NCBI RefSeq assembly: GCF_018780385.1
Contig: NZ_JADMJO010000003.1
Coordinates: 1 to 64,000 of the forward strand
DNA length: 64,000 nucleotides
Origin: Hydrogenophaga sp.
GTDB lineage: Bacteria; Pseudomonadota; Gammaproteobacteria; Burkholderiales; Burkholderiaceae_C
Direction of reading: 5' to 3'
In this document: positions 38,158-51,694 of the stretch, in pieces
How positions within the stretch are numbered: the stretch's first letter is position 1
How the letters are laid out: every line of letters begins with the position of its first letter
The notes under the pieces: model-generated
Databases searched by the model: none
Seen by the model: only the letters and a program-made list of their open reading frames with translations
Told to the model about the DNA's origin: nothing
Program-made: the position numbers and the translations under genes

Positions 38158-38234
38158 CTGCCCGTAGCTCAACCGGATAGAGCAGCTGCCTTCTAAGCAG
38201 CAGGTCGGGGGTTCGAGTCCCTCCGGGCAGGCCA
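38158..38234 (+). tRNA. tRNA-Arg (TCT), integration site
   Basis: 77-nt cloverleaf: acceptor CTGCCCG pairs perfectly with CGGGCAG, anticodon stem GCTGC/GCAGC encloses loop CTTCTAA with anticodon TCT (reads AGA), T-arm GTTCGAGTC, encoded CCA. Its 3' 18 bp (GTTCGAGTCCCTCCGGGC) are repeated at 51673-51690, and a tyrosine recombinase gene follows, so the element uses this tRNA as attB and restores its 3' end. Confidence 0.96.
38211..38234 (+). repeat. attL: 3' end of tRNA-Arg
   Basis: 18 bp GTTCGAGTCCCTCCGGGC, followed by AGGCCA (end of the tRNA). Exact 18-bp copy at attR, where the continuation is GCCA, meaning AG was lost. This is the functional copy because the tRNA has a perfect acceptor stem here. 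Confidence 0.88.
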
Positions 38235-38268
38235 CATCAACTTCTCACACCGTCTCGAATCGACTTGT

Positions 38269-38301
38269 AACCCGCGTGTTTCCTGGCACTGCGGGTTTTT
38301 T
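38269..38301 (+). terminator. Likely terminator downstream of tRNA-Arg, inside the element
   Basis: AACCCGC, 15-nt loop, GCGGGTT then a run of T. Seven-bp stem; probably terminates tRNA-Arg transcription before the integrase gene. Confidence 0.6.
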
Positions 38302-38323
38302 GTTGTCTCACACCCTCTCTGTC

Positions 38324-38397
38324 GATACCATGACATACCGTAACAAAAGCGGTATCTGTCGCGGTATCTGGTCTTTGCCAGTCGCTGGATACCGTCA
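38324..38397. promoter_or_regulatory. Cluster of GATACC/GGTATC repeats near attL (candidate arm-type sites)
   Basis: Two direct copies of GCGGTATCTG (38349-38358, 38361-38370) and inverted GATACC copies at 38324-38329 and 38388-38397, with a further ACATACCG between. Related GCGGTAT and CGGTACC sequences occur near attR (51602-51621). Such repeats on both sides are typical of arm-type sites bound by the N-terminal domain of tyrosine recombinases, or of operators for int expression. Confidence 0.5.
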
Positions 38398-38409
38398 CAA
38401 GGGGTAGCC

Positions 38410-39651
38410 ATGGCTCTGACCGACACTTTCGTGAGACAGGTGAAGCACTCCGGCCGACCTGCCGGGGACAAGCACACTGACGGTGCCGGCATGTACCTCC
38501 TCGTGAAGGCTGCCGGCCGGTACTGGCGTCAGGACTACGCCTTCTCTGGCAAGCGGAAAACGCTTGCGCTGGGCGTGTACCCAGACGTCTCGCTCGCCAA
38601 GGCCCGCCAGCGGCGCGACAAGGCGCGGGAGCTGCTGGCTGACGGCGTCGACCCCGGTGTTGCGAAGCGGGCGGGAAAGTTGGCCACGTCGGTGGCTGCC
38701 GCCAACACCTTTCAGGCGGCAGCTCGAGAGTTTCATGCCAACCAGGCCGGAGGCTGGAGCCCGAGGTACGCCGCGCGCTGGATCGAGCGCATGGAAAAAG
38801 ACCTGTTCCCCTACGTCGGCCGCTTGACGTTGACCGAGATCTCGGCGCCGATCCTGCTTGACGCCCTGCGGAAGGTGGAAAAGCGAGGGGCCAATGAAAC
38901 CGCCCACACGTTACGCCAGACTGCTGGCCAAGTGTTTCGCTACGGTATCCAGACTGGCCGGTGCGAGCGAAACCCGGTTGCCGATTTGCATGGAGCCCTC
39001 AAACCGATCGTGGTGAAGCACATGTCTGCGGTGTTGGAGCCCCAGCAGGCAGGCGAGTTGCTGCGCGCCATCGACGGGTATACCGGCCAGCCCGCCACTC
39101 GGGCCGCGCTGACCCTGTCCGCCCTGCTCTTCCAGCGGCCCGGCAACATCAGGCAGATGGAATGGGCATGGATCGATTTCGACAAAGCCATGTTGACGAT
39201 CCCCTCCGCGGAGATGAAGCGCCGGCTCGCTCAGAAGCTCAACGGCCGGCCGCACTTGGTGCCTCTTTCACCGCAGGCCCTGGCAACCCTGAAAGAGCTC
39301 CAGCCGCTGACAGGCCATGGGCGCTTCGTCTTTCCGAGCCTGCGCACCGGCGAGCGGCCCATGAGCGAGAACACCGTGAACGCCGCACTGCGCCGCCTGG
39401 GCTTCACGGGCGACGAAATGACCGCCCACGGTTTTCGCGCCATGGCTCGAACACTGTTGATCGAGCGCATTGCAGGAATCTCGCCCGAAGTGATCGAAGC
39501 GCAACTGGCGCACGGCAAATCGGGACCGCTGGGCATGGCCTATGACCGCGCGGAGTTCATGGAACAGCGTCGACAGATGATGGACGTGTGGGCCGACTAC
39601 CTGGACAGGCTGCGTGTGGGCGCGAAGATCATCCCGTTAAGGGCAGCGTGA
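38410..39651 (+). CDS. Tyrosine recombinase, DUF4102/P4-type integrase
   Basis: 413 residues. N-terminal DUF4102 arm-binding domain (MALTDTFVRQVKHSGRPAGD), SAM-like core-binding domain (about 100-200), and catalytic domain with Arg in FQRPGNIRQMEW (about residue 242-247), HGFRAMAR (His about 340, Arg about 343), and the nucleophile Tyr in GMAYDRAEF (about 378). All catalytic positions are present, so it should be active. Immediately downstream of tRNA-Arg, which it should use as the target. Its stop overlaps a short ORF at 39651. Confidence 0.95.
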   Translation: MALTDTFVRQVKHSGRPAGDKHTDGAGMYLLVKAAGRYWRQDYAFSGKRKTLALGVYPDVSLAKARQRRDKARELLADGVDPGVAKRAGKLATSVAAANTFQAAAREFHANQAGGWSPRYAARWIERMEKDLFPYVGRLTLTEISAPILLDALRKVEKRGANETAHTLRQTAGQVFRYGIQTGRCERNPVADLHGALKPIVVKHMSAVLEPQQAGELLRAIDGYTGQPATRAALTLSALLFQRPGNIRQMEWAWIDFDKAMLTIPSAEMKRRLAQKLNGRPHLVPLSPQALATLKELQPLTGHGRFVFPSLRTGERPMSENTVNAALRRLGFTGDEMTAHGFRAMARTLLIERIAGISPEVIEAQLAHGKSGPLGMAYDRAEFMEQRRQMMDVWADYLDRLRVGAKIIPLRAA

Positions 39652-39863
39652 TGGGCGAGCGTCGTGTACGGGAGGCTGACGCGCGCTCCGTTGCCCTTGA
39701 GCTGACCGACCGTTGCATCTACTGTGGTGGAGCCAAGCGAGGGACCACTGTCTGCGAGAAGATGCGCCTCACGACACAAGGGGCAGTCTTTCAGGTTGTA
39801 GCCTTTGGGGATGGCGCCGCCCGCGCTTCGGGAAAAACGAGCACGGGTGGCGCAGGTATGTAG
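39651..39863 (+). CDS. Possible 70-residue protein overlapping the integrase stop
   Basis: ATG overlaps the integrase stop (TGATG). 70 residues with one Cys pair (CIYC, about residue 23-26). It overlaps the opposite-strand membrane-protein gene by 73 bp. No family recognised; could be a coupled small protein or a chance ORF. Confidence 0.25.
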   Translation: MGERRVREADARSVALELTDRCIYCGGAKRGTTVCEKMRLTTQGAVFQVVAFGDGAARASGKTSTGGAGM

Positions 39864-40534
39864 GCAAGGAGATCGCCAGATTTCCTTTTAGCGACGCGAA
39901 TCGCAAATCTCTGTTTCCGCTCCTCTCCGTTCCAGTCTGTGTAGCAGATCACGCATGAAAGATCTTGCCCAATGTGCTGAACAGAAAGCGCAAACGACAT
40001 CTCCACTGCAGTGCCGCCATTGAAAATTAACGGGAGTTCTTCGCCTTCAAACAAGAGAGACTCGTCCTCATCTGCGTAAATCGCTAAGCGCGAACACAGG
40101 CGCCCCATATTGGTCATCGTCAAGTAGAAAAGGTCTTTCCCGTGGTGCACAAGTCCGCCCGCAAGTTGCACGTCAAACACCGGCTGGTTCGACAAAAATG
40201 TTGCCCGACGCCTTTCTTCTTCTCGAGCGAGTTCAAACTCATGCTGGCGCTGCGTTGTCTCCACTAGTGCCCGTTGTTGGTCTACTGACGCCTGCAGCTC
40301 CTTCACCTGCAAGTTGAGCGCCGTGGTGTTCTGTCGCAGCTCCTCGCCCTGCTGGAGGTAGCCGAGCACTAGCCACAAAAACGCCAGTGGGCTGGCTGCG
40401 CCTGCAAGGGCATCACCCAGCTCATTCGGGGTCATTTTCATCACTGGATCGCGTTGGACATAGGCGTAGATTGCCAAGGCGACAACGTACGCGATGGTGA
40501 CCAACATCCCAATGCTGTATCGCTTGTCGGTCAT
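39791..40534 (-). CDS. Two-helix membrane protein with coiled coil, unknown function
   Basis: 247 residues. Two transmembrane helices (about residues 8-26 and 47-65), a coiled coil rich in Gln, Glu and Arg (about 65-115), then a compact domain with FDVQLAGGLVHHG and LFYLTMTNMGRLCSRLAIYADEDESLL that has a beta-rich pattern. No family recognised. The domain order, two TM segments, coiled coil and soluble domain, occurs in several phage-defence membrane effectors, which makes a defence role possible but unproven. It lies 7 bp after the small membrane protein gene at 40542 and shares its promoter. Confidence 0.7.
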   Translation of the reverse strand: MTDKRYSIGMLVTIAYVVALAIYAYVQRDPVMKMTPNELGDALAGAASPLAFLWLVLGYLQQGEELRQNTTALNLQVKELQASVDQQRALVETTQRQHEFELAREEERRRATFLSNQPVFDVQLAGGLVHHGKDLFYLTMTNMGRLCSRLAIYADEDESLLFEGEELPLIFNGGTAVEMSFALSVQHIGQDLSCVICYTDWNGEERKQRFAIRVAKRKSGDLLAYIPAPPVLVFPEARAAPSPKATT

Positions 40535-40541
40535 TCACACC

Positions 40542-40784
40542 TCAGCGAGTGGCGGTCAGATCATCGTCGGACTTGTACCCATCCCGCACCCTGACACGAC
40601 GGGCCTCGGCGATCAGGATCTCGTTCGTCTTCTTCTCCTCACGGATGAGCTCGCGCAGAAGATCCTTGGTGCCGAAGATCGCGAAGGGCATCAAGATCCA
40701 CAAAATCGCGATGAGCAGGACAAGCAGGCCCAACAGCAACATGACTACCCCACCAACTGCCTGCATCCCTTCCATACCGTCCAT
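40542..40784 (-). CDS. Small single-helix membrane protein, unknown function
   Basis: 80 residues from ATG preceded by AAGGAGG (6-7 bp spacing). One long hydrophobic segment (about residues 11-39: VGGVVMLLLGLLVLLIAILWILMP in part) followed by a charged region (LLRELIREEKKTNEILIAE). Not a recognised family. Its stop lies 7 bp before the membrane protein gene at 40534, so the two are an operon of element cargo. Function unknown; small membrane toxins or helper subunits of effectors look similar. Confidence 0.7.
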   Translation of the reverse strand: MDGMEGMQAVGGVVMLLLGLLVLLIAILWILMPFAIFGTKDLLRELIREEKKTNEILIAEARRVRVRDGYKSDDDLTATR

Positions 40785-40945
40785 ATCCGCCTCCTTGAAA
40801 AAGGCCGATCGTACGCTGCCCTGCCGTTTCAGAACTCCAAAAACCATCCTCTCGGCGCTAGACGCACCTTGATCCAGCGGCGGACCAAATCGATTCGCTT
40901 TCTATGGCCGGTCGCCCACAAGCGGCCATGCCGATAATGCACTGC

Positions 40946-41587
40946 ATGACCTACTTCTTCACTCTCGAGTTCAGTCACGAGTTGCTTGTGGACGACGACG
41001 AGCCTTCAAGGTACGTGAAGGAAATCGAAGGTGTCGTTTGGGTCTATCGAGGCAGTCGCAAGCATCGCGCGGGCCGGTTTTCAATCTTCATCATCAACGT
41101 GGAGCGAGCTCTAGCGAATGACGAATCGGTGTTCGACATCTTTGACTACGCGTCGACAACAATGGGTTATCTACTGCTCTATGGCGACGATGGGGAGTAC
41201 GCCCCCGAAGTGACCGCAATACTGCCAGGCGGTGAGCGATGGAGTCCGAACCTCCTAATACTGGATCGTTTGGAGGTGCTCCCCAAGTACCGGGGCTATG
41301 GCATCGGCCTGCGGGTGCTGCGCTGCCTCCAAGAGCAGTTCAGCATGGGTTGCGGCTTGGTCGCAATGAAGCCCTTTCCCCTTCAATTTGAGGGAGGGGA
41401 TCCGGCGGAGAAAGAAGGTGATCCGAAGTTCGTGACGATGGGCCTTGGAGACTTCGACCGAAATCAGGGCCGTGCAACGGCAAGACTCTGCAGGTACTAC
41501 GCCCAACTCGGCTTTATCGGTGTGCCGGGAACCGATTTCATGATCTCAGACCCTCTGATGGACCTCCCGCCACTCGTCGGAAGTTGA
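40946..41587 (+). CDS. GNAT-like N-acetyltransferase-fold protein
   Basis: 213 residues. Central LDRLEVLPKYRGYGIGLRVLRCLQEQF contains an R-G-Y-G-I-G motif resembling the acetyl-CoA-binding motif A (Q/RxxGxG/A) of GNAT enzymes, near residues 110-122. Sequence similarity to a named family was not recognised beyond this. It has no transmembrane segment. Substrate unknown; GNAT proteins on mobile elements include toxins and modification enzymes. Start uncertain: Met at 40904 and 40928 are also possible; the chosen one has no strong ribosome-binding site. Confidence 0.6.
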   Translation: MTYFFTLEFSHELLVDDDEPSRYVKEIEGVVWVYRGSRKHRAGRFSIFIINVERALANDESVFDIFDYASTTMGYLLLYGDDGEYAPEVTAILPGGERWSPNLLILDRLEVLPKYRGYGIGLRVLRCLQEQFSMGCGLVAMKPFPLQFEGGDPAEKEGDPKFVTMGLGDFDRNQGRATARLCRYYAQLGFIGVPGTDFMISDPLMDLPPLVGS

Positions 41588-41595
41588 CTTTTCGG

Positions 41596-41633
41596 AATAC
41601 ATAAAGCCGTGCGTCGATTCGACTTTATGCATT
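41596..41633. promoter_or_regulatory. Inverted repeat upstream of the RHH-like gene
   Basis: AATACATAAAG (41596-41606) and CTTTATGCATT (41623-41633) form an 11-bp inverted repeat with one mismatch and a 16-bp gap, ending 13 bp before the start of the RHH-like gene. A likely operator for it or for another element regulator. Confidence 0.55.
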
Positions 41634-41645
41634 ACATTAAGTCGC

Positions 41646-41831
41646 ATGGCGAATAAAGAACTCGAAGCACGACCTCGTATGGGTCGGCCACCGATCCCTG
41701 AGGAACAAAGGACTGTGAATGGATCGATTCGTTTGACTCCAGATCGCTGGGCAAAGTTGAGAGAACTGGGAACAGGCTGGCTCAACAAAGCGATCGACCG
41801 CGCGAAGGCTCCGGGACCTGAGCGCAAATAA
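41646..41831 (+). CDS. Small ribbon-helix-helix-like protein
   Basis: 61 residues, MANKELEARPRMGRPPIPEEQ then VNGSIRLTPDRWAKLRELG and WLNKAIDRAK. The middle part matches the ribbon-helix-helix pattern (hydrophobic-polar alternation, then GxxWLxxAIDxA) common in small proteins of Burkholderiales genomic islands. Probably a DNA-binding repressor or an antitoxin without a recognised partner. An inverted repeat lies just upstream, and a hairpin lies just downstream. Confidence 0.6.
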   Translation: MANKELEARPRMGRPPIPEEQRTVNGSIRLTPDRWAKLRELGTGWLNKAIDRAKAPGPERK

Positions 41832-41832
41832 C

Positions 41833-41868
41833 GAAGGCCGGCAGCGCTTGGACCCGCTACCGACCTTC
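41833..41868. terminator. Hairpin between RHH-like gene and S24-like gene
   Basis: GAAGGCCGGCAGC (41833-41845) and GCTACCGACCTTC (41856-41868) pair over 13 bp with two G-T/mismatch positions, 10-nt loop. A run of T is absent, so this may be an attenuator or mRNA-stability element rather than a terminator. Confidence 0.4.
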
Positions 41869-41904
41869 TAACCACAACGTGCAACATCTGAAAGGACGCA
41901 CACC

Positions 41905-42426
41905 ATGGCTACATTGGATTCTAGATCCCCGAGCAATGTGATCGACTTTGAGAATTTCGCGGACCGACGAACCCTGACCGCTCATCAAACACGACACGTG
42001 GAAACGGATGGGAGAAGCGTCGACGGGAAAGAACTAAAACTGGAGGAAGGATTGTTCAACTTCGCCCAGCTTGCGCTGAAGAAGAGTGCATACGCGATGC
42101 GTGTCTGCGGCGATATCGGACATCCGACGATCCGCGAAGGCGAGTTCATTGTGATCGAGCCTCACCTGAAAGCTGCGCCCACTGACAGGGTGGTAGTAGC
42201 GCTCAAGGATGGCAGGACGATGCTGCAGGAGCTGCTCGTAGACCGGCCTAAGAGCATCACACTGAGGTCGCTGGACGGAGCCACTCGGCGCACCATCCAG
42301 CGCAACGAACTCCGCTCAGTGTTCGGCGTTCAGGTGGTGACATCGATCGTCTCGGCTCGATTGCTTGCGAAACCTCCTCTGGACACCTCCATCCACATAC
42401 CTGCCGTGGGGTCGAAGTTCTCCTGA
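41905..42426 (+). CDS. S24-fold protein lacking the catalytic dyad and a clear HTH
   Basis: 173 residues. The middle (YAMRVCGDIGHPTIREGEFIVIEP, about residues 62-85, read in parts) aligns with the LexA/UmuD S24 domain, whose catalytic Ser stands in G-D/M-S-M; here that place is Ile (about residue 71). The catalytic Lys position (TVKRL in LexA) reads TMLQEL, with Gln near residue 108. The domain therefore cannot self-cleave in the usual way. The first 60 residues are charged and not a recognisable HTH. Possibly a decoy or dominant partner of a phage repressor. It follows the RHH-like gene and hairpin. Confidence 0.6.
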   Translation: MATLDSRSPSNVIDFENFADRRTLTAHQTRHVETDGRSVDGKELKLEEGLFNFAQLALKKSAYAMRVCGDIGHPTIREGEFIVIEPHLKAAPTDRVVVALKDGRTMLQELLVDRPKSITLRSLDGATRRTIQRNELRSVFGVQVVTSIVSARLLAKPPLDTSIHIPAVGSKFS

Positions 42427-42672
42427 GCTATCAACCTGTCGCGTTCGGCAATGATGTTTTTCAAAGCCTCTTGACCTTGGACGGTATCAAGGTATGTGCG
42501 CCACCGAAGTGACTCCGCCTGCTCCGGCTATCGCAAGTCCAACAAAGGTTCCAAGCTTCCTTCATGATGTTCCCGGCGCTGGTGGGGGCAGGTTCAAATC
42601 TGAGCACGCTCGCGCTTTGTGGAAAAGCGAGGTTCACATCGTTGGTGGAGGCATCCGTCAATGTCGGAGGTG

Positions 42673-42915
42673 CTAGTTATAGAACAGCTCGATCATTTGC
42701 TGCCCAGTGGCGCCCTGGAAGGTAAGAGTGACCTTTCGCGGCGGCGCGGCCCAGTCGTCGGTGATGAGCTCGTCGATGAGTTGCTTCCCGGTCTTTCCCT
42801 GATGGATCAAGCGATCATGTTTTGCTAAGACACCGATCTCGAAGTACTCCTCCGAATAGCTATCGTCGGCGTACACGATCGATACCTTCACTGTCTTATG
42901 GGCATCCTTGGTCAT
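42673..42915 (-). CDS. Unrecognised 80-residue protein
   Basis: 80 residues, MTKDAHKTVKVSIVYADDSY then WAAPPRKVTLTFQGATGQQMIEL. Start chosen at the second of two ATGs because AAAGGA then lies six bases upstream. It overlaps the end of the gene at 42918 slightly or abuts it, consistent with an operon. Looks like a small beta-alpha protein; no family recognised. Confidence 0.6.
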   Translation of the reverse strand: MTKDAHKTVKVSIVYADDSYSEEYFEIGVLAKHDRLIHQGKTGKQLIDELITDDWAAPPRKVTLTFQGATGQQMIELFYN

Positions 42916-42917
42916 GT

Positions 42918-43262
42918 TCATTCCTTTGGCCAGGTAGATATCGCGTAGCTGAGCTCTTCACGAGCATCGTCAACAGATCTGAGCCAGCCGCTGTTCTTAG
43001 GGCTGGTGTTGGTGGGTGAGCGCATAGCAATGTGCGCGCTTCGGAGGGCAGAGGCGAACGTAGCTGCGAGCCAGTCATCGACATGAGCAGATTCTCGACG
43101 CTCGAACTCTTTAAGTCGCAGTTCAAGGTGCTGCTTGAGGCCTTTGTACTCGGCCTTCGCATCATCTTCGCTGGCACACTTCGTTGTCACGGACGAGCCC
43201 ATCTGCGAAAGCGATTCAGCCCGTACCTCCAGTTGCCGAAGCTCATCTAGATAGGCGTGCAT
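42918..43262 (-). CDS. Unrecognised helical 114-residue protein
   Basis: 114 residues, MHAYLDELRQLEVRAESLSQ, then DDAKAEYKGLKQHLELRLKEFERRES: strongly helical, likely coiled coil, no membrane segment. GAGGAA lies just upstream of the ATG. It is followed without a gap by the 80-residue gene at 42915. Not recognised; probably element cargo. Confidence 0.6.
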   Translation of the reverse strand: MHAYLDELRQLEVRAESLSQMGSSVTTKCASEDDAKAEYKGLKQHLELRLKEFERRESAHVDDWLAATFASALRSAHIAMRSPTNTSPKNSGWLRSVDDAREELSYAISTWPKE

Positions 43263-43386: not shown

Positions 43387-43929
43387 TCAGAACATGTTCG
43401 CGAAAAGCAACCTCCAGCCAGGCACTTTTGGCGGAGGTTTGGGATTTGCGACAGCGATGGCCTGCTCGTATTCGCAGGCCATGGCCAGTGCCTTGAGCAT
43501 TGGTGGCTCCTTCGTTGACACCTCGGCGGCGTACCGCTTCTTCCACATGGCGACCTGCTCCATGGTCAGGTCATCTATAGGGACCCCCTCGATGTCGGCG
43601 ATCAGGAGCATCAGTTTTACGGCCAACTCGTTATGGAGCACGCGCCGAGACGAGTAATTGAAAACCAACGAGAGAAAGCCTAGACCGGCTATCACCGATG
43701 CAGCGAACGGCAACCAGCATTCCAGCGCCTTGGCGAGGATTGTTGCCCCGAGAAGGACGGAGATCGCTGTTGTCGCTTTATCGAGTTTGTCGAACCACGC
43801 CTCGCGTCGTCTGTGATAGCGGTATGCGATCCAGAGGCGATGCCAGAGTTCGCAGCGAAGATCCCACTCGTCAGGCGGCCGATTGGTATGGAGCATCCCC
43901 TCCGTGGCATCTCCGTCCTGGGCCGCCAT
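43387..43929 (-). CDS. SLATT-like two-helix membrane protein
   Basis: 180 residues: charged N-terminus ending RYHRRREAWFDKLDKATTAISV, two closely spaced transmembrane helices (about residues 55-74 and 79-98), then a charged C-terminal helix. This layout (Arg/His-rich run, pair of TM helices, amphipathic helix) is that of SLATT-domain effectors found with SMODS/SLOG systems; I recognise it by layout rather than by strong sequence match. It is the second gene after the Pro-rich short ORF at 44100 on the same strand, and no cyclase or SLOG gene is visible here. Confidence 0.55.
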   Translation of the reverse strand: MAAQDGDATEGMLHTNRPPDEWDLRCELWHRLWIAYRYHRRREAWFDKLDKATTAISVLLGATILAKALECWLPFAASVIAGLGFLSLVFNYSSRRVLHNELAVKLMLLIADIEGVPIDDLTMEQVAMWKKRYAAEVSTKEPPMLKALAMACEYEQAIAVANPKPPPKVPGWRLLFANMF

Positions 43930-44183: not shown

Positions 44184-44429
44184 TCAGGCCAATGATTGGC
44201 TGTTCTCGAAGTGATGCTCTTCGAGCTGCGCGAACAACCGTTCCATTTCATCCAAGCTTGACACAGAGCCCAACGGCCTGTGCGGCCCCACCAATTCGGC
44301 CTCCGTCTCGCGGAGCAACTGCGTCCAGCAAATCATTGTTTCCAGCGGCTGCTCGGCACCGGGCGTACCCGGCCCCTCCCCGCATGGCTGCGGCTTTGGT
44401 TCGATGGAATGGCTTGGCGGTTTGGTCAT
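44184..44429 (-). CDS. Unrecognised 81-residue protein
   Basis: 81 residues from MTKPPSHSIEPKPQPCGEG; further in-frame ATGs at 44489 and 44522 overlap the preceding gene. Ends LDEMERLFAQLEEHHFENSQ, a helix. No family recognised. It follows the gene at 44844 on the same strand. Confidence 0.45.
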   Translation of the reverse strand: MTKPPSHSIEPKPQPCGEGPGTPGAEQPLETMICWTQLLRETEAELVGPHRPLGSVSSLDEMERLFAQLEEHHFENSQSLA

Positions 44430-44460
44430 GGGCTCAGTGTCACCAGGCAGCTCGGGCTCG

Positions 44461-44844
44461 TCAACGCAACGTGTCTGCGAGCGCTTCATCGGCAGCGATC
44501 TGAGCATGTGTGCACTGGGCAAAACCTGCCAGTTGCAGTCCGAGGATGTGGGCCTCGCGATGGGACATGCTCAACGACTGGTCCCCCACTTTGGCCGTAA
44601 CAGGGCCGCCGATTTCCTCGATCGTCAGGCCTACCGGCCGAATCGGTGGCTGCGCCCGAAGTAGTCGAAACACCCCTGCCTTCAAGCGGCGCAGGCTTTC
44701 GTCGTCCTCGATGAACCGCTTGCGCAGCACCTCGCGGGTGATGACTTGGTCGTGGGCGTGCAGGTCCATGATGGCCCCCCAGAGGATGTCTTTGGTGCGC
44801 CGACCCGCTGCGGGCTTCACACTTTCGGAGGAGATGACATTCAT
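44461..44844 (-). CDS. Unrecognised 127-residue protein with iterons and a homopolymer upstream
   Basis: 127 residues from MNVISSESVKPAAGRRTKD. The part WGAIMDLHAHDQVITREVLRKRF then RRLKAGVFRLLRAQPPIRPVG resembles a helical DNA-binding fold, but no family was recognised. Upstream, in order from the start: 9 bases, an 11-C tract on the coding strand, a GGGG/CCCC palindrome, then four 12-bp iterons (44921-44968). No Shine-Dalgarno precedes the ATG. The frame is open further upstream to 45141, so a longer protein is possible; slippage in the C-tract could switch frames. May be a replication-control or transcription factor. Confidence 0.5.
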   Translation of the reverse strand: MNVISSESVKPAAGRRTKDILWGAIMDLHAHDQVITREVLRKRFIEDDESLRRLKAGVFRLLRAQPPIRPVGLTIEEIGGPVTAKVGDQSLSMSHREAHILGLQLAGFAQCTHAQIAADEALADTLR

Positions 44845-44853
44845 TCTGGAGCT

Positions 44854-44880
44854 GGGGGGGGGGGTGGCGGGGGCCCCCCC
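44854..44880. repeat. 11-base G/C homopolymer and palindrome upstream of the 127-residue gene
   Basis: Plus-strand G11 at 44854-44864, then TGGC and GGGGGCCCCCCCC (44868-44880). On the coding (minus) strand this is an 11-C tract ending 9 bases before the ATG. Long homopolymers slip during replication, which can change expression or frame. Confidence 0.7.
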
Positions 44881-44920
44881 CGAGATCCCATTTATAGCTG
44901 TTTGGGGGCCTTGAAGTAGT

Positions 44921-44968
44921 GCGTACCTCCTTGCGTACCTCACTGCGTACCTCACTGCGTACCGGCAC
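44921..44968. repeat. Four 12-bp iterons (GCGTACCTCACT type)
   Basis: GCGTAC recurs exactly every 12 bp at 44921, 44933, 44945 and 44957. The first three copies extend to GCGTACCTC; the last reads GCGTACCGG. A period of 12 bp is slightly over one helical turn. Likely binding sites for a replication initiator or repressor, next to the gene at 44844. Confidence 0.65.
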
Positions 44969-45031
44969 TGCCCCATTCCCGGCTTCCCACCATGTGTCCC
45001 GAAAGCTTGAGAGATGGAAGAATCTTGTCGT

Positions 45032-45175
45032 TTAAAACGGCGCCAGCGAGATGAACACTTCGACCGGGCCAGGACCGTGATATACAGCTTCACCTGTTGA
45101 TGTGATGCGAACGATCCGCCAGTTGTCGCGTTGCTCGACATGGTAGGCGGTAGCTGGAAGCTCGAGCACCGTTTC
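45032..45175 (-). CDS. Possible 45-50-residue protein, weak
   Basis: An open frame on the minus strand with the segment ELPATAYHVEQRDNWRIVRIT and a PVEVFISLAPF end looks like a real small beta protein, but the start (GTG, about 45175) is uncertain and it lies just beyond a terminator. It may need its own promoter. Low confidence. Confidence 0.3.
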   Translation of the reverse strand, partial: ETVLELPATAYHVEQRDNWRIVRITSTGEAVYHGPGPVEVFISLAPF

Positions 45176-45194
45176 CACAGGGTAAGGCAGGCGT

Positions 45195-45219
45195 AAAAAA
45201 GCCCGCGAGAGGCGGGCTG
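45195..45219 (-). terminator. Intrinsic terminator of the KilA-N-like gene
   Basis: Minus strand: AGCCCGCC, TCTC loop, GCGGGCT then TTTTTT. It follows the stop of the gene at 45243 by 24 bp. Confidence 0.85.
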
Positions 45220-45242
45220 TTGGGGGAAGGGAATGGTCAGGA

Positions 45243-46217
45243 CTAGTTGCGTCCGATGCCTTTCGGGTCCTTGTAAGCCGACAATGCGATCTGGGCAAAC
45301 GAAGCCGGGAGGGCGCGGTCTCGCACCTTTGAGTTCAGGTAGTTCTCGAATTTGCCTTCACCAACGTATGTCTCTCGAAACCAGCGCCTGAACTCTCCCA
45401 GCGCGGCGTCCGGATAGCACCATGGCTTCTGCGGATTGGACATGGCCTGGGGAAAGTAATCTGGGTAGTTGTGCTCGTAGTTGATCCTGGCGCCGTATTT
45501 CGCATCAGACTTGCCTCCAGTCCAATGCTTGCCCCAGCCGATGCCGACTGAAATGTCAGGAACAAAGTTGCTGTCGATCATCAGTCCTTGCTGACCAAGG
45601 TGAACGATCATGTCCGAGATCTCTTTAAAGATGCTGAAATATCCGTTCGGAACGGAGTTGTAGACAAGCGAAACACGATCGTGGAACTGCCGCCAGACCT
45701 CCGGCACATGGTTCTGCGGGTCATATCCCACCTGCGTGTAGATGAAATCATGGAGCGCCTTGCCCGCAAGCAATCGGAAGTTCTTTTTGGCGTCATCTGT
45801 TGGCTTGTCGAAGGCGTGATACTCGAGAACAGCTAGGCAAACCACGTCCGAGTAAGCATGGAAGAACTCGCCAGCTTGACGGATCTCAACATAAGGCGTG
45901 GCGACAAAAATGCCCTTGTCTGCCAAAATTTTCTTGACAGCACGCGCCAGTGGGTTGGGCGCTTGGCTGTTCCAACTCTGCGCCAGTTCAGAGACGCGGC
46001 TGCTGTCTATTCCGCATAGACCGGCAAGTCCGCGCCCCGTGAGGAATGCCGTGCCGTCCGACAGCACCCCCATGCCTATGCCGTTGATCTCCAGTTGCTT
46101 GTCGATGAACAACTCACCCTGTCCGGCAGGGGTGCGCGGGTTAGGGGTTAACGTCGCAGGTAACTTATTGATTCCTAGAGACTTTTGGGTGCGCGGATTT
46201 GTTGGCTTCGACGGCAT
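45243..46217 (-). CDS. KilA-N/antirepressor-like protein, about 324 residues
   Basis: 324 residues from MPSKPTNPRTQKSLGINK (AAGGA six bases upstream; the ATG at 46268 has none). Residues about 45-75 (ELFIDKQLEINGIGMGVLSDG, then TAFLTGRGLAGLCG) look like the N-terminal part of phage KilA-N/antirepressor proteins. The C-terminal half is well conserved-looking (SVPNGYFSIFKEISDMI, DISVGIGWGKHW, NYPDYFPQAMSNPQKPWCYPD) but I cannot name it. Length and N-terminal type would fit prophage-encoded abortive-infection proteins such as BstA, an untested idea. It ends in a strong terminator. Confidence 0.65.
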   Translation of the reverse strand: MPSKPTNPRTQKSLGINKLPATLTPNPRTPAGQGELFIDKQLEINGIGMGVLSDGTAFLTGRGLAGLCGIDSSRVSELAQSWNSQAPNPLARAVKKILADKGIFVATPYVEIRQAGEFFHAYSDVVCLAVLEYHAFDKPTDDAKKNFRLLAGKALHDFIYTQVGYDPQNHVPEVWRQFHDRVSLVYNSVPNGYFSIFKEISDMIVHLGQQGLMIDSNFVPDISVGIGWGKHWTGGKSDAKYGARINYEHNYPDYFPQAMSNPQKPWCYPDAALGEFRRWFRETYVGEGKFENYLNSKVRDRALPASFAQIALSAYKDPKGIGRN

Positions 46218-46553
46218 GAATCTTCCTTGATCATTTGAATACGGCCCGCTCGATTCTCCCTTGCCCATTGTCAAAGCGCCAGTCGGCCCGGCGTGACGTT
46301 CTCCACGCTCACCGCTTCCGCCACTCCCAAGGCGGCCCGGCCTGCATAGACCAGACCCCGCGACCAGCGCCACGCCGATCGTGCAGGCTATCCTGGTCGA
46401 GGTTTTGCCGTTCCTCACTGGCTCGACTTGAGAGACCCGCTACACGCCCGCCTTGATGTAGGGCCAAGCAGCGAGAGCCAACGCTGCCAAAGAAACTGGG
46501 ATGGCCCAGCCCGCCCACTTTGCCGAACGCTCCGCAAGGGCAGTTCACAGACT
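46218..46553. other. Intergenic region upstream of the KilA-N-like gene
   Basis: 336 bp between the start of the KilA-N-like gene and the stop of the gene at 46554. No convincing ORF and no terminator were recognised. It should hold the promoter of the KilA-N-like gene. The frame upstream of its start is open to 46418 but lacks a ribosome-binding site. Confidence 0.5.
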
Positions 46554-47129
46554 TCACGCGGTAGGCAACTGTTGTTCGGGATGCGCCTGCACGTGCTCGC
46601 GCTTGAGCAGGAAAAGTGCGTTCTTCAGGGCGGTTTCCGCTTGCCTTGCGCGGTCGCGAAACTCGCCCTGCTCCGGTGGTGATCGGCAGAGATCAGCGTA
46701 GGCCAAGCGCGCGGCCCGTAGCCTGAGCTCAACCACCTCCATTGATTGCTTGGTGGCCAGTGCCCGCGGAAACTCAAGGTCACCTTTCAAGGCATCGTCA
46801 AGCGCGGCCAGGCGGAACTCTTCCGCACCAGCATCGAGCTGGCGCTGCATGCCCGTCATGGCTTCGGCAATCGTCGCCGGGTGAGTCTTCCGCATCGCCA
46901 CGTCGTCCGCGCGCGCCTGCAGCAGCGTGAGCGCCGCCGTCAGGCGTTCGATCTCAGGGTGCCCCGCGAACAGCGCGTCCGGGAGGCCCCTCGCGATCTG
47001 ATCCGAGTCGCGCGGGCTGGCACCCTCCTCCAGGCGCGGCCCTCGGTGATATGCCGAGTAGCCCGAGAGGATGGTTTTGCTGGCTTCGTGGCCCTGCCAC
47101 AGCCGTTCGACGGTCGAGAGGTTCTGCAT
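46554..47129 (-). CDS. Helical phage-type protein, 191 residues, unknown function
   Basis: 191 residues from MQNLSTVERLWQGHEASKTIL (AGGAAG five bases upstream). Mostly helical and charged, with LTAALTLLQARADDVA and MEVVELRLRAARLAYADLCR segments. No transmembrane part. It follows the structural-like gene at 47185 on the same strand after 56 bp and may work with it. No family recognised. Confidence 0.6.
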   Translation of the reverse strand: MQNLSTVERLWQGHEASKTILSGYSAYHRGPRLEEGASPRDSDQIARGLPDALFAGHPEIERLTAALTLLQARADDVAMRKTHPATIAEAMTGMQRQLDAGAEEFRLAALDDALKGDLEFPRALATKQSMEVVELRLRAARLAYADLCRSPPEQGEFRDRARQAETALKNALFLLKREHVQAHPEQQLPTA

Positions 47130-47184
47130 GATTCTTCCTGTTGAGTTGAGATGGTTCCGCGCGTGATGTGAGCCGGGCGTAGCC

Positions 47185-48516
47185 CTAGCGCACCTCCTCG
47201 AACTGGGGCTGACCCTGTGCATCGAGGCTCACGACACGGACGCTGCGATCACCTACGGTGTAGGTCTTGCCCACCTCGTAGTTCTCGGGGCGAGAGCCTT
47301 TCGTGCGGCCAGCCTCGCCGCGGCGCACCTGGGCGGCCATGTCGACCACCTGGCCAGTGCGGTTGTCCACCACCAGCGCCGGGCCGCGCAGCTTCACGAC
47401 CCCTCCGCTACCGTCGGGCGCCGCGTATTCCTCACCAGGCACCACGGTGTAGCCGGGGTTGGCTTCGCTTTTGCCCTGCAGCGCCATCAGGGTCTGCGCC
47501 GCAGCCTTGCGCTTCGCATCGGTATCGGCTGTTACGTAGGCGCTGCGCGCGGCTTGCAACTGCTCCGACTCGGCCATGGTGTTCGCCCGAAAGCCGCGCG
47601 CGCTCGCGCTATTGAGTTCCGATTCGGCCTGACGGCGTACGCCCAGATCCGCGACGCCGCGCGCAATCTCGGTTTGGTCGGCTGTGGCCTGCCGCTTGCT
47701 GGCGCTGTTGGCCAGGCGCGAGCGCAGCAAGTCGTCCATCGTGGTCTTGCGCGGGTTCATGCCGGCGTTGAAGGCGTTGATGCCCTGGGCGTCCTTCACC
47801 TGCTTGTCGTAGGTGTAGCGCTGATCGGCCGTCATGCCGTTGCGCGGGTCGAACGGGCGATCGAGGATTGCTTTTGCTTCGCCTGGGGCCATGCCGGGCA
47901 CCACGCTGACGCCGGCGCCGCGCGGCTTGAAGCCCGCGGCCTGGGCCCCTTGGTAGTTCAGCGGGCCGCTGATGTTCTCGCCACTGAACTCCTTGATGCC
48001 ATTGGGCTGGCGGCGCACGCCAACCATGCCCAGACCAAGCGCTTGATCGCCAGAGGGAGCCACACCACCGGTGGCAGGGCCTGGCACGCCCCCAGGGGCT
48101 CGTGGGGCGGCGGCGGGGTTGGAGGTACCAGCGACACCCGATCCGTTGACTTGTGCGGCCGCACCACGGCCGTCCGCATCGGCGGCATTCAGCAGCGACA
48201 CGCCTGCTGCCAGCGGAACACTGGGCGCGAGCACGCCCTGGACAAGAGGTGAAGAAAATCCGGTGGCCACCTTGGCGGCGCCTTTCAGCAGGCCGGCGAC
48301 GACGGGCCCACCGATCGGCGCGAGGGCTGCAGCGGCATTGCTCACGCCACGGGAAAACTCGGTGCCGTTGTCGCGGGTGCCGCTACCTCCTTTCCACCCC
48401 ATAGGTGCGGAGCTGGGGATTTGGTCGACTGGGCTCTTCTTGCCGGCAAGCAGTGGGGCTGTTCCCAGACCTTGCTGGGGCTGGCGCGGCTGGGCATCTT
48501 GGGTTCGTGTGTACAT
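47185..48516 (-). CDS. Gly/Ala-rich phage structural or ejection-like protein
   Basis: 443 residues. An N-terminal Gly/Ala/Pro-rich part (about 40-180) with AAAALAPIGGPVVAGLLKGAA, a helical middle with MNPRKTTMDDLLRSRL and QATADQTEIARGVADLGVRRQA, and a C-terminal beta-like end (NYEVGKTYTVGDRSVRVVS). Reads like an internal virion, ejection or tail-fibre-base protein of podovirus-like phages, but no family was recognised. It is the only gene of that kind in the element; neighbours are replication and regulatory genes. It starts 63 bp after the P-like gene. Confidence 0.5.
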   Translation of the reverse strand: MYTRTQDAQPRQPQQGLGTAPLLAGKKSPVDQIPSSAPMGWKGGSGTRDNGTEFSRGVSNAAAALAPIGGPVVAGLLKGAAKVATGFSSPLVQGVLAPSVPLAAGVSLLNAADADGRGAAAQVNGSGVAGTSNPAAAPRAPGGVPGPATGGVAPSGDQALGLGMVGVRRQPNGIKEFSGENISGPLNYQGAQAAGFKPRGAGVSVVPGMAPGEAKAILDRPFDPRNGMTADQRYTYDKQVKDAQGINAFNAGMNPRKTTMDDLLRSRLANSASKRQATADQTEIARGVADLGVRRQAESELNSASARGFRANTMAESEQLQAARSAYVTADTDAKRKAAAQTLMALQGKSEANPGYTVVPGEEYAAPDGSGGVVKLRGPALVVDNRTGQVVDMAAQVRRGEAGRTKGSRPENYEVGKTYTVGDRSVRVVSLDAQGQPQFEEVR

Positions 48517-48579
48517 GATGGTTGTCCGGTGGGTATTTGTTGAAATGTGGGGAGAAAGCGGGCGGGAGTTCGTGGTCGG

Positions 48580-49215
48580 TCACCTCTTCCCCTTCATCGC
48601 AGAGAACTCTCGCGCAGGCACCGCTGCGGGAGATCGTTCTGGCGGTGAGACCTTGCTTTCAAGGCGGCGCAGCGTCGCGACCTCATCACCACCGGCGAGG
48701 CGAACCGCCTCGGCGATCAGCGCTCGCACGGTGTCCAGGCCTTCGCCTGGCTTGACCATGCCCATGCACACGCTGATCCTGGCGTTGTAGGTGGCCATGG
48801 CTTCGGTTCGGGCGCGCGCGGTGTATGACGACCTCAGGCCCTCCGACATGGGGATCTTGAATTGCGACTCGGGTGCAGGCCTCCGTGGCTGGATTGCTTT
48901 GCAGAGGGCCACGAACTCGGGCAGCGTCGGCGGGTACTTCGAGTGATCCACCTTGCAGCGCTCGGCCGCCGCGCGCACCACATCGCCGTCAAAGCCGTCG
49001 AGCTCGTGTTGCCAGACCACCATGGCCGACTTGATGCCGCGGTCCTTGCCCTCGGCGTCCACGTCGCCGGTGGTGTACCGCGAAAGCAGCAAGGTGCCGT
49101 ACCAGGCATGAAACAGCATGAACAGGCCTTTGACGCCGGCCTGCAGGTCTTCAGGCTGCGCCGACACCGCGCCGATTTGCGCGCCCTTGATAGCTTGGGT
49201 GATGGTTTTAGACAT
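48580..49215 (-). CDS. Lambda P-like replication protein (helicase loader type)
   Basis: 211 residues from MSKTITQAIKGAQIGAVS. The stretch GLFMLFHAWYGTLLLSRY and then HSKYPPTLPEFVALC are the pattern of the phage replication protein P family, which brings host DnaB helicase to the origin. It overlaps the O-like gene end by 8 bp, giving the classical O-P gene pair. The element thus has its own origin-firing system but depends on the host polymerase and helicase. Confidence 0.8.
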   Translation of the reverse strand: MSKTITQAIKGAQIGAVSAQPEDLQAGVKGLFMLFHAWYGTLLLSRYTTGDVDAEGKDRGIKSAMVVWQHELDGFDGDVVRAAAERCKVDHSKYPPTLPEFVALCKAIQPRRPAPESQFKIPMSEGLRSSYTARARTEAMATYNARISVCMGMVKPGEGLDTVRALIAEAVRLAGGDEVATLRRLESKVSPPERSPAAVPAREFSAMKGKR

Positions 49216-50122
49216 GGGTGGCTCCGTCGAAGATCGCTGCTGCTGCTGCGGTGAAGCGGCTCGTGGAAAGCGCTCGGCTCTGCGTCTGCCGCTCATGCGG
49301 CTTGAGCCAGTCGGCCTGGAGGCCTTGAGAGCCGCGCATACACCAGACCTGCAAGAAGGCATCGAGAGGCAGGCCGGCCGTCACAGCTTCGCGCCGGGCT
49401 CCGTCCACAACTGTCTCAGTCACGGGCGCCTTCTTGGCCTTGCGCAACGCCAGCCAGTCGACCCAGGTCTGCTCGGCAACGTCGTCCGGTCTGCCAACTC
49501 CGGCGGCGGTGCTGCGCTTGCGAGGTGCTACACCACCGTCAGGTGGTGGAGATGTAGGAATTGGAGACGGAGACGGAGACGGAGACGGAGACGGAAACGG
49601 AAACGGAAACGGAAACGGAGACGGAGATGGAGACGGAGCAATGCTGTCTTCGGCTGGTTGCATGCACCCAGCACCATCCTCGCCTGCTGCGCTCGTGCTA
49701 CCAGCATTGCAGGCAGCATCTCGGAGTGCGGCGTACTCAGGCACCTGGCGGTTCGCCTCAGCGACACCGTGATGGCGCTTGGCCGCGTTCCACTGGGCTT
49801 TTTGTGACCGCATCTTGGCCCCGGCCGCCCATGGGTTGTGCTCGGCCCAGTCATGGATCGCGCGTGTGCCGACCTCACCGTCGAGGAATCGCACCTTCGC
49901 CAGCTCGCCAATGAAGGCACCATCAGCACCTCCCCAGTCGGCCGCCAGTTCGATGTCCTCATCGGTCATGCCGCTCAAGTCCCCATCGCTGCGGTTCGAT
50001 GCAGCCCAGAGGAAGAGGCACACAAGACCCCAGCCACCGGCCGGGCCCAGCCGACGGATCAGCTTCTTCGTCTTCGGGTGCGACGGAAGGCCCGTCGAGA
50101 TTCGTGCATCGGCGGCCATCAT
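49208..50122 (-). CDS. Lambda O-like replication initiator with (Ser/Phe-Pro)n linker
   Basis: 304 residues from MMAADARISTG. The N-terminal winged-helix part (HPKTKKLIRRLGPAGGWGLV, then DIELAADWGGADGAFIGELA) is typical of phage replication initiator proteins of the O type. The middle (about residues 163-188) is a run of Ser-Pro and Phe-Pro dipeptides coded by 12 hexanucleotide units. The C-terminal part (about 205-300) should bind the P-like partner. It overlaps the P-like gene. Because the lambda origin lies inside O, the hexamer block may also be part of the origin. This is inference. Confidence 0.75.
   Translation of the reverse strand: MMAADARISTGLPSHPKTKKLIRRLGPAGGWGLVCLFLWAASNRSDGDLSGMTDEDIELAADWGGADGAFIGELAKVRFLDGEVGTRAIHDWAEHNPWAAGAKMRSQKAQWNAAKRHHGVAEANRQVPEYAALRDAACNAGSTSAAGEDGAGCMQPAEDSIAPSPSPSPFPFPFPFPSPSPSPSPSPIPTSPPPDGGVAPRKRSTAAGVGRPDDVAEQTWVDWLALRKAKKAPVTETVVDGARREAVTAGLPLDAFLQVWCMRGSQGLQADWLKPHERQTQSRALSTSRFTAAAAAIFDGATHV
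49563..49634. repeat. 12-unit hexanucleotide tandem repeat inside the O-like gene
   Basis: Plus strand: 5 x GGAGAC, 4 x GGAAAC, then GGAGAC, GGAGAT, GGAGAC. On the coding strand these give Ser-Pro and Phe-Pro dipeptides. Since the unit is six bases, gain or loss keeps frame and varies only linker length. Confidence 0.9.
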
Positions 50123-50502
50123 GGAACCACCTTGCTGCCGGTTCGGATGACATGCCGCGGCTGCTTGCGCAGTTTCGGCTCGGTGTCAAGGACATAGAGT
50201 GCCGAACGCGTGTGCTCAAAGCCATCTTGATCCCAAAGGGTCACGCGCTCTGTACGAATCACGTATCCAAAACGATCGCGCAACTCCTTCACGCGAGCGG
50301 CACATGAGTACGCGCCGAGTCTCCGGAGCTCGTACGAGGTCTTGGGGCCGGTGCGCAGTGCATCAAGAATGCGCTGGCGCTGGGCTTCCGCAGTCGTGCT
50401 CTTCGCACTACACTTAGCGTTGTCCGTTTTCTTATTTCCCTGAAAGCCCCCGGCCTGGCCGCCTGGGGCTTTTGCTTTTTCTGGGTGGTCGTTCCGGTTC
50501 AT
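50119..50502 (-). CDS. Winged-helix (HTH_39-like) regulator
   Basis: 127 residues from MNRNDHPEKAKAPGG. Residues about 40-75 (AEAQRQRILDALRTGPKTSYE then LRRLGAYSCAARVKELRDRFG) fit a helix-turn-helix of the HTH_39 type common in phage and satellite genes. The C-terminal part (WDQDGFEHTRSALYVLDT) is beta-like. The ATG overlaps the stop of the gene at 50732 and its own end overlaps the O-like gene start by 4 bp, showing coupling in the replication operon. Confidence 0.7.
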   Translation of the reverse strand: MNRNDHPEKAKAPGGQAGGFQGNKKTDNAKCSAKSTTAEAQRQRILDALRTGPKTSYELRRLGAYSCAARVKELRDRFGYVIRTERVTLWDQDGFEHTRSALYVLDTEPKLRKQPRHVIRTGSKVVP

Positions 50503-50732
50503 CGCGAACCTCCGATCTGCGCCAAGAACTCCAGAACGGTTGGCCAGGAGTCGAAAGACCGGGCGTGACCCCAGCGACTGACCACCCATGAGTCTTTGCC
50601 GTCTGCGCCGCGGCCGCCGGCAATCAGCGCATGGCCACGAAGTGCGTACTCGGCGCGGGCATTTGCAAACGATTTTTGACTTGGATGGTGACCCGTGACG
50701 AGGTCCTCTGATGTCGCAACCAGGGCGGTCAT
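50499..50732 (-). CDS. Small phage-type protein, 77 residues, unknown function
   Basis: 77 residues (MTALVATSEDLVTGHHPSQK), overlapping the stop of the AlpA-like gene and the start of the winged-helix gene by 4 bp on each side. No family recognised. The coupling supports it as a real gene. Confidence 0.6.
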   Translation of the reverse strand: MTALVATSEDLVTGHHPSQKSFANARAEYALRGHALIAGGRGADGKDSWVVSRWGHARSFDSWPTVLEFLAQIGGSR

Positions 50733-50938
50733 GCTGACCCCTGCCCAGCCAAAAGGCGGCGGATGTCACCGACCTTGAAGCGCGTGCACTTGGCGCCGAG
50801 GCGTACGGGCTTCGGGAAGTCAGGCTCGAGACTCGTGCGCCGCCAGACGGTCGAGGGTGCGATGCCGGCGAGAGTGCGAAAGGCCGTCACCGGCAAAAGA
50901 GCCGAATCGGGCAGAGAGTCGAAATTTTTGAGATCCAT
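50729..50938 (-). CDS. AlpA-like regulator or excisionase
   Basis: 69 residues from MDLKNFDSLPDSALLPVT. A MerR-like winged helix: LPVTAFRTLAGIAPSTVWRRT then DFPKPVRLGAKCTRFKVGDIRRLLA. AlpA proteins switch on replication and excision genes in P4-like satellites and in phage-inducible islands. It is the first gene of the replication operon, at the end of the element opposite to int. An upstream in-frame ATG 24 codons away gives no better match. Confidence 0.75.
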   Translation of the reverse strand: MDLKNFDSLPDSALLPVTAFRTLAGIAPSTVWRRTSLEPDFPKPVRLGAKCTRFKVGDIRRLLAGQGSA

Positions 50939-51010
50939 GTTGCGTCCTGGTGCGCAACGCCTGGTGGTGATCAAACACCGGACGCTGCGCGGGTTGAAAA
51001 CTGCGCGCAA

Positions 51011-51187
51011 CAGGAAATGTCTACCTCAGTTCAGAAAAAATGAAACCCTAGTGGGGGTCATCGAGGCGGACTGGCATCGTACGGATGCATTGCTCGCCGA
51101 CAAAGGACTGCCGGCTCAGCCCGGGGAACCGAGCCTTCAGGGCCCGCGCAAGTCGGTGATACTGCGTCTTTCCTCGAAAGGAGTGGT
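51011..51187. promoter_or_regulatory. Divergent control region between AlpA-like operon and the 51188 gene
   Basis: 177 bp with several TGCGC-containing repeats (TGCGCAACGCC, CTGCGCGGGTTG, CTGCGCGCAACA, about 50950-51010 into the region) and an imperfect palindrome around TGGTGATCAAACACC. Probably carries operators for an element repressor. No coding frame is supported. Confidence 0.4.
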
Positions 51188-51382
51188 ATGCAGTTGGAAA
51201 TGGGTGACGTGAAGTTGCACACCGTGGAAATTGAAGGGGTGGCCTACACAATCCGGATCGGGTACGTCCCCAACGGGTTTTGGTGGAAGTGCGCTGGAGG
51301 CTTCGATTGCGACGGAGTCAAATCGAATCGCGAAGTCGCGTTGGCGGATGCAATCGCTGAGATCAAGGCCCGTAGCCTGTAG
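51188..51382 (+). CDS. Small 64-residue protein, unknown function
   Basis: 64 residues from ATG preceded by AAAGGAG. MQLEMGDVKLHTVEIEGVAY, with TIRIGYVPNGFWWKCAGGFD, looks like a small beta-barrel protein. It is the only element gene on the plus strand near attR, divergent from the AlpA operon. Possibly the counterpart regulator or a recombination helper; no family recognised. Confidence 0.55.
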   Translation: MQLEMGDVKLHTVEIEGVAYTIRIGYVPNGFWWKCAGGFDCDGVKSNREVALADAIAEIKARSL

Positions 51383-51601
51383 GGCCGTCGAGCGCGGCCG
51401 CTCCGCGTGAAGCGTGGGAATGGCCTCGGCGCCGCCACAAGCTGGTAGAACCGGCTCGCGCACTAATCAGCCCTGGCGCGTGTGGTGGATGGCAGGTTGG
51501 CGGTCAAAGGCGCTTCTCCCGTCGTGCTGTCGACCTGATCCAAACGGCCTGCAGACCAGCCGTGTCTCAGCGACCCAACAGTCAGGGCACTTTTGGTTTT
51601 C

Positions 51602-51621
51602 GCGGTATTTTTCACGGTACC
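51602..51621. promoter_or_regulatory. GCGGTAT/CGGTACC repeats near attR (candidate arm sites)
   Basis: GCGGTAT (51602-51608) and ACGGTACC (51614-51621), 12 bp apart, matching the GCGGTATC repeats beside attL. Candidates for integrase arm-type binding on the right side. Confidence 0.45.
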
Positions 51622-51672
51622 CATGGACTTCATCCGGCTGAAAGCTAGCCTACATGCGGTCTGCAGGCCGAT

Positions 51673-51694
51673 GTTCGAGTCCCTCCGGGCGCCA
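51673..51694 (+). repeat. attR: copy of tRNA-Arg 3' end with 2-nt deletion
   Basis: GTTCGAGTCCCTCCGGGC, identical to attL over 18 bp, then GCCA. Compared with the tRNA end (AGGCCA) the bases AG are missing, so this copy is not functional and has drifted after integration. It marks the right boundary of the element. Confidence 0.85.

Follow-up and report, generated by a model that had tools for sequence, protein, structure and literature searches.

The abortive-infection protein BstA is known from the Salmonella phage BTP1, in which it is silenced by aba, a DNA-based self-immunity element of 63 bp that carries CCCGCC at both ends and is effective in trans only when its copy number is high (Owen et al. 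2021, PMC8585504). In the available text of the same report, 79% of 72 BstA homologues have phage genes nearby and 15 of the 72 do not, and BstA also occurs in LESGI-1 islands of Pseudomonas (PMC12629846, available text); bstA without a full prophage has therefore been seen before. How aba silences BstA was stated to be open by its discoverers in their discussion (PMC8585504), and again in 2024 (PMC10884400). In the literature searched, which covered no bioRxiv preprints and few subscription papers, the aba repeat is described for BTP1 alone, and direct binding of aba by BstA is not described. Here, we analyzed 64,000 nt of a Hydrogenophaga sp. contig (NZ_JADMJO010000003.1, assembly GCF_018780385.1, positions 1-64,000, forward strand; hereafter the window), in which an element of 13.46 kb at a tRNA-Arg gene carries bstA and a predicted aba. 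We consider this element to be probably a phage-satellite-type island that combines an integrase, an AlpA-like regulator, and O/P replication genes with a bstA-aba defence module, and in which no terminase or capsid gene was recognised.

Gram-negative phage-inducible chromosomal islands (PICIs; PMC6092414) resemble the element in their integrase, AlpA-type regulator, replication module, and size (~12-15 kb), with no structural or lytic family detected in it. Unlike PICIs, the element has O/P-type rather than primase replication, no recognised terS or capsid-redirecting gene, and a gene, p443, discussed below. PICIs are also characterised by att sites that prophages never occupy, and by induction that depends on a phage, with packaging into its particles. 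The smaller phage-inducible chromosomal minimalist islands (PICMIs; PMC10803314) likewise combine int and alpA with no recognised capsid remodelling gene, but they occupy a fis site rather than tRNA-Arg and carry prim, and the element yielded no primase match. The element is like the BstA loci reported outside prophages in that its bstA gene is not part of a full prophage, whereas satellite-type elements with int, alpA, and replication genes are not described in the available text of those reports (PMC8585504, PMC12629846).

The element is bounded by exact 18-bp copies of the 3' end of tRNA-Arg (TCT) (38158..38234, + strand, ARAGORN), as the first-pass annotation had proposed. The attL core, GTTCGAGTCCCTCCGGGC, lies inside the tRNA gene (38211..38228, +) and the attR core, again GTTCGAGTCCCTCCGGGC, at 51673..51690 (+), 13,462 bp away from start to start. 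With up to three mismatches allowed, the repeat matched the 64 kb at two places, where shuffled sequence gave 0.08 matches on average (two were reached in 1 of 100 shuffles), and GC content is 0.605 inside the element, 0.640 to its left, and 0.653 to its right. The attR copy also lacks exactly the bases AG, reading CGGGC then GCCA where the tRNA gene reads CGGGCAGGCCA, as do two related genomes without the element at this site (G001 and G026). Both element-free sites fit the earlier suggestion that two bases were lost from attR while element DNA restored the tRNA. The congener G001 provides the empty site that the annotation had recommended seeking. Here, homology extends to window position 38243 and resumes at 52456, so that the same tRNA-Arg is followed within ~60 bp by sequence homologous to the window from 52456 onward, where by eye a flavodoxin-like gene lies. 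G001 also lacks window positions 51691-52455, which hold a LysE/RhtB-type transporter gene (by eye; 51702-52353, - strand) between attR and the flavodoxin-like gene. This gene was left out of the element, as it lies beyond attR, though it is absent at the empty site. A stretch similar to the LysE region is found in the genome G032, ~1.6 kb from the flavodoxin-like gene and near a tRNA-Ser.

The open reading frames (ORFs) of the element, some overlapping in other frames, were scanned against Pfam and PHROGs (20 ORFs) and against PADLOC (10 ORFs). A tyrosine integrase of 413 aa (38410..39651, +) matches PF13356, PF22022, and PF00589; PF13356 (Arm-DNA-bind_3), which we take to be the renamed DUF4102, bears out the DUF4102-type integrase first annotated here. 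The AlpA-like regulator or excisionase (50729..51010, -) matches PF05930 below the Pfam cut-off (E 0.0079), and this weak call gains support from its similarity (32% identity) to the AlpA of the sister element L031, itself recognised as AlpA with E 4e-7. Of the replication module annotated as O/P, the O-like initiator (49208..50122, -) is well matched (phrog_9474, E 4e-13; phrog_678, E 2e-12), and the P-like helicase loader (48580..49362, -) only weakly (phrog_109, E 0.0036). Families of terminase, portal, capsid, tail, lysis, relaxase or transfer, and primase proteins were not matched by any of the 20 ORFs, and no terS was recognised among them, with cos and pac sites not searched for. Near DNA matches to phage records were also not found. 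The absence of packaging and capsid genes claimed earlier holds among these ORFs and is qualified by a relative of p443 that sits beside a podophage-type late gene; the original gene list had missed both this kinship and the bstA-aba module.

A search for p443 in 299 family genomes found relatives in two, this genome and G280, and the latter contains a sister element, L031. It lies whole on a 16.8-kb contig, measures 15.9 kb, belongs to another genus, and occupies tRNA-Gly, with 17-bp copies of the tRNA 3' end at 626 and 16461. It has in common with the window the integrase (61% identity), alpA, p77 (44%), phrog_8117, p497 (p443-like), and p203 (p222-like), while a primase-helicase and a weak single-stranded DNA-binding-like gene take the place of O/P. 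It additionally carries p750 and a gene that we assume to be DUF5681-like, and no bstA match. Small genes of no assigned function lie in two further stretches of L031, one between the DUF5681-like gene and int (14223-14749) and one to the left of alpA (3378-4756). A PHROG profile for the large terminase was not matched in G280, which is 73% complete; the same profile was positive in 11 of 14 control genomes.

Integrase relatives were also recovered from IMG/VR viral contigs at ten loci, and an alpA-like match was present in the fetched stretch at nine of these. The contigs measure 7.7-47.5 kb and may be fragments; with three of them above 30 kb, they are not uniformly small. Of the nine integrase loci scanned for tRNA genes, two are located at tRNA-Arg (TCT); their contigs measure 16.1 and 11.8 kb. 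One contig of 16.5 kb (L192) encodes an integrase 68% identical to that of the window and a match to window p61 (57%), together with matches to the AlpA (61%), excisionase-like (54%), and DUF5681-like (41%) proteins of L031; judging by these similarities, it may be a third member of the lineage. Relatives of p443 were not found in viral contigs and phage records. The p222/p203 family gave 95 hits in viral contigs by a two-pattern scan, none of which was confirmed, and among 399 order genomes a strong score was obtained in this genome alone (three others gave E 5e-4 to 9e-4). It is rare in the sampled genomes. A structure of p222 predicted by AlphaFold2 from two sequences was poor, with a predicted local distance difference test (pLDDT) score of 48.5.

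The bstA gene (45243..46217, -) encodes 324 aa from the chosen ATG, and its longest ORF extends to 46418 (391 aa). This longer ORF belongs to the BstA family (phrog_6287, E 1.8e-84; PADLOC BstA, E 7e-113). A terminator-like hairpin directly follows the gene (45200..45218, -), a consensus match of a kind found twice in the stretch against 2.0 expected by shuffling, and a sigma-70-like promoter was not found in 44300-46700. BstA was detected in two of 67 genus genomes and in two of 399 family genomes (one weak), with no confirmed case in viral contigs. A scan of genome contigs yielded 125 BstA relatives, of which 80 loci were kept. At no fewer than three of these, in Rhodanobacter (L102), in an unclassified proteobacterium (L108), and in Halomonas (L127), bstA lies near int, alpA-like, and primase genes. 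These neighbourhoods were marked by tblastn with a few integrase, alpA, and primase queries and by PHROG scans, and virion genes were screened for at only part of the 80 loci. The clearest case is L108, in which an integrase gene beside tRNA-Leu is accompanied by an AlpA/excisionase-type gene, a DUF5681-like gene, a primase gene, and bstA, flanked by genes that look like host genes by eye. Virion categories were matched by none of the eight ORFs scanned at L108. A 13-bp repeat at the ends of L108, with copies separated by 7.5 kb, offers weak evidence, as the same search gave two 12-bp repeats. Large-terminase hits occur somewhere in the genomes of L108 (three) and L102 (one, weak). Another locus, L125, offered only a 28% integrase match and an alpA-like match.

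Near the start of the window bstA, the unit CCGCGCACCC occurs at 46187..46196 (-) and 46130..46139 (-), 57 bp apart at codons 8-11 and 27-30. These are the only two copies in the element and two of five in the window. The arrangement resembles that of BTP1, in which the tested aba repeats CCCGCCA at a spacing of 56. It differs in that the unit is not CCCGCC and both copies lie inside the ORF, and in that bstA follows p222 with no recognised virion genes, whereas in BTP1, a full phage, bstA adjoins the repressor gene (PMC8585504, available text). We surveyed this layout in 83 regions (the window, three phage loci, and 79 scan loci, with the partial locus L174 excluded), which were dereplicated to 79. 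An exact repeat of at least 8 bp occurs at 55, 56, and 57 bp in 2, 8, and 28 loci, respectively. These 38 loci compare with 1.19 expected, and a maximum of five, in 300 permutations that paired first and second copies across different loci, and with a shuffle mean of 0.33 loci (maximum 4). At the same length, the remaining spacings between 10 and 120 were each limited to one locus at most, and in three control stretches a spacing of 57 bp occurred in 0, 2, and 0 loci. By a looser repeat score, 65 of the 79 loci pass against 9.4 expected. The units vary by locus (AAGGAAATC, AAGGAACTC, CGATCACC, GGTCACC, CCGCGCAC, and others), although the distant BstA loci L103, L116 (a Limisphaerales metagenome-assembled genome), and the window have CCGCGCAC in common. 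The window and L103 also agree in their helix (DSSR[VI]SE), and AAGGAAATC goes with the helix NAHIGT. Outside this set, an Azospirillum plasmid with the helix NAHIGT carries CAAGGAAATC at 57 bp, and the Salmonella phage S135 repeats the unit of BTP1; in a Klebsiella phage, CL707, and a Sagittula plasmid, repeats were weak or blank.

The repeat unit also covaries with one part of the protein. In 38 loci, repeat-unit similarity was compared with identity in each 11-residue stretch of BstA, with adjustment for identity over the remaining residues. Residues 71-81 give the highest partial correlation, 0.447 (median 0.05; best value away from this region 0.212), and in none of four sets did any of 500 permutations attain the peak value. 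The peak starts at residue 67 without the largest clade, at 67 without the two largest, and at 71 with one locus per helix. This sliding-window test was chosen after a comparison of the N- and C-terminal parts of BstA had given no clear separation (partial r 0.33 and 0.41). An AlphaFold2 model of the window BstA (42 sequences, pLDDT 81, predicted template modelling score 0.57) places helices at residues 61-68 and 72-81, in a block with pLDDT above 90 and positioned as a helix-turn-helix (HTH), in agreement with the KilA-N-like prediction published for BstA (PMC8585504, available text). Residues 1-33 have pLDDT below 50 and form a predicted disordered tail, and both repeat copies lie in the DNA that encodes it. 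The spacing also follows the residue before the CG of the first helix in the 47 loci that have a 7-bp repeat at 50-63 bp: Leu accompanies a spacing of 57 (27 of 30), and Met a spacing of 55-56 (13 of 15). The repeat pattern, its covariation with the region of the second helix, and the model suggest that aba is a pair of sites bound directly by BstA.

Several observations weigh against this reading of aba. No exact 8-bp repeat at 55-57 bp is present in 41 of the 79 loci, and only the Azospirillum plasmid, which follows the code, gave a new strong repeat among five further bstA loci. At L116, the unit of the window stands at a spacing of 67 beside a different helix, which misfits a simple code. 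In the smallest subset of the covariation test (22 loci), another stretch reaches 0.306, and rest-of-protein identity is a crude control for phylogeny. A Foldseek search of the PDB with BstA gave no match at E <= 0.001 (the best was DdrC, E 0.05), and a PDB sequence search gave nothing significant. It could also be argued that the 57-bp repeat is an artefact of protein sequence or descent and not a BstA site at all. The spacing is divisible by 3, both window copies read NPRT in a shared frame, the homologous loci cannot be counted as independent, and with 7-bp repeats the three controls give 1, 8, and 3 loci at 57 bp, the eight coming from an in-gene stretch (+400 to +570). These control counts indicate that shared descent adds some signal. 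Yet spacings of 55 and 56 account for 10 of the 38 loci, the first copy in BTP1 lies upstream of the start codon, the encoded tail is predicted to be disordered, and units differ between loci while the copies agree within each locus, as the cross-locus control shows. We regard an artefact as very improbable.

The nature of the element itself is open to two other explanations. Under one, a podoviral prophage at tRNA-Arg lost a block that began after P and took in the terminase, portal, and coat genes and most of the tail genes, with int, O/P, p443, and bstA left behind. Three findings count against the satellite reading: the attR is degraded, relatives of p443 are few in the family genomes, and the p443 relative sits with podophage-type late genes, as it would in a deletion remnant. 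More specifically, p497 of L031 directly precedes the podophage-type late gene p750. Relatives of p750 occur in 20 viral contigs, 18 of which measure 18-43 kb, and weak p497 matches lie beside p750 relatives at 5 of 27 loci (that of G280 excluded). The p750 homologue closes the virion-side run of genes in both PAE2 and EBPR podovirus 1, where it lies downstream of a coat protein gene (P22-type in PAE2), and in PAE2 an integrase gene follows ~2.6 kb past it. By position, and presumably in line with the P22 gene order, p443 would be an ejection-type protein. In addition, an O relative occurs in 29 viral contigs, 12 of which exceed 35 kb, phage bstA genes adjoin a CI-type repressor gene or lie one gene away, and the S24 protein of the element may have lost an HTH domain. 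However, L031 contains p222-, p443-, p77-, and phrog_8117-like genes in another genus, at another tRNA gene, and with another replication module, so that this history would require two independent deletions that left the same set; relatives of p222 in viral contigs were also unconfirmed by the two-pattern scan. Because sites and replication modules differ while the odd genes are the same, a satellite lineage explains the window and L031 more easily than parallel deletions. We consider simple prophage reduction unlikely, if well short of negligible. An origin in a podophage that underwent reduction and today persists as a satellite is likewise compatible with the data.

The other explanation takes the element for a defence island or an integrative element that is moved by its own integrase or by a conjugative helper alone and never packaged by a phage. 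Its integrase, defence gene, and cargo without assigned function, together with the lack of a recognised terS, are compatible with this, and published islands of such a type have unclear mobilisation (PMC10121019, available text). Against it stand the O-like, weakly P-like, and AlpA-like genes and the absence of relaxase or transfer families among the 20 ORFs, and we find this explanation improbable. The satellite-like character proposed by the first-pass annotation is supported by the anatomy of the element, by L031, and by related integrases on viral contigs, with p443 keeping a reduced-prophage origin in contention.

We infer that the element is mobile and depends on a helper. AlpA and the integrase would excise it when a helper phage is active, O and P would recruit the host replisome, and the helper would package it. 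TerL_ATPase (PF03354) was not found in this genome, and the wider phrog_2 large-terminase profile had one hit, on contig C17, with the window on contig C77. The hit lies among genes that look phage-like by eye (L180, G000:C17:1-20000, and L181), and this region is a possible helper. By analogy with BTP1, BstA would block replication of incoming phage DNA. The DNA of the element would be exempt, as the first codons of bstA, coding for the predicted disordered tail, would hold two BstA-binding sites 57 bp apart, read by the second helix (residues 72-81) of the HTH.

Other genes of the element complete its description. An S24-peptidase (CI/UmuD-like) protein (41905..42426, +) matches PF00717 (E 4.5e-6) and no HTH family. 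Cargo at 39791-41587 and 43387-43929 comprises p247 (39791..40534, -; phrog_9267) and p180 (43387..43929, -; phrog_11791), both of unassigned function by PHROGs, and p227 (40904..41587, +), with weak GNAT similarity below the Pfam cut-off. By eye, p180 looks like a two-helix membrane protein and is perhaps a second defence. On the minus strand, p226 (44461..45141) belongs to phrog_8117, the family of L031 p137, p222 (46554..47222) is 35% identical to L031 p203, and p443 (47185..48516) is related over ~81 aa to L031 p497 (E 1.7e-9). A winged-HTH protein (50119..50769, -; PF14090) is overlapped in an alternative frame by p77 (50499..50732, -), which has the 44% match in L031. Tandem six-base GGAGAC/GGAAAC repeats at 49557-49637, in the O-like gene, code for a Ser/Pro/Phe-rich linker. 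A perfect 16-bp inverted repeat (40840-40855 and 47063-47078, 6.2 kb apart) may reflect chance, inversion, or a regulatory site.

These findings place bstA on elements of the satellite type in which virion genes were not recognised. On such elements, the target of a self-exempting replication block would be the helper rather than a sibling prophage. To the question of how aba silences BstA, we propose that aba consists of a pair of direct repeats separated by ~5.4 helical turns (taking 10.5 bp per turn) and recognised by a single BstA helix, the sequence of which predicts the repeat. A bolder proposal, to which we give only slight credence, is that the satellite uses BstA-aba as a copy-number licence and, more broadly, that aba comprises BstA sites under a helix-to-DNA code. 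BstA would then stall any incoming phage until satellite replication yields enough aba to titrate it. If the licence operates, helper growth would be conditional on satellite growth, and if the code is real, specificity would be predictable from sequence.

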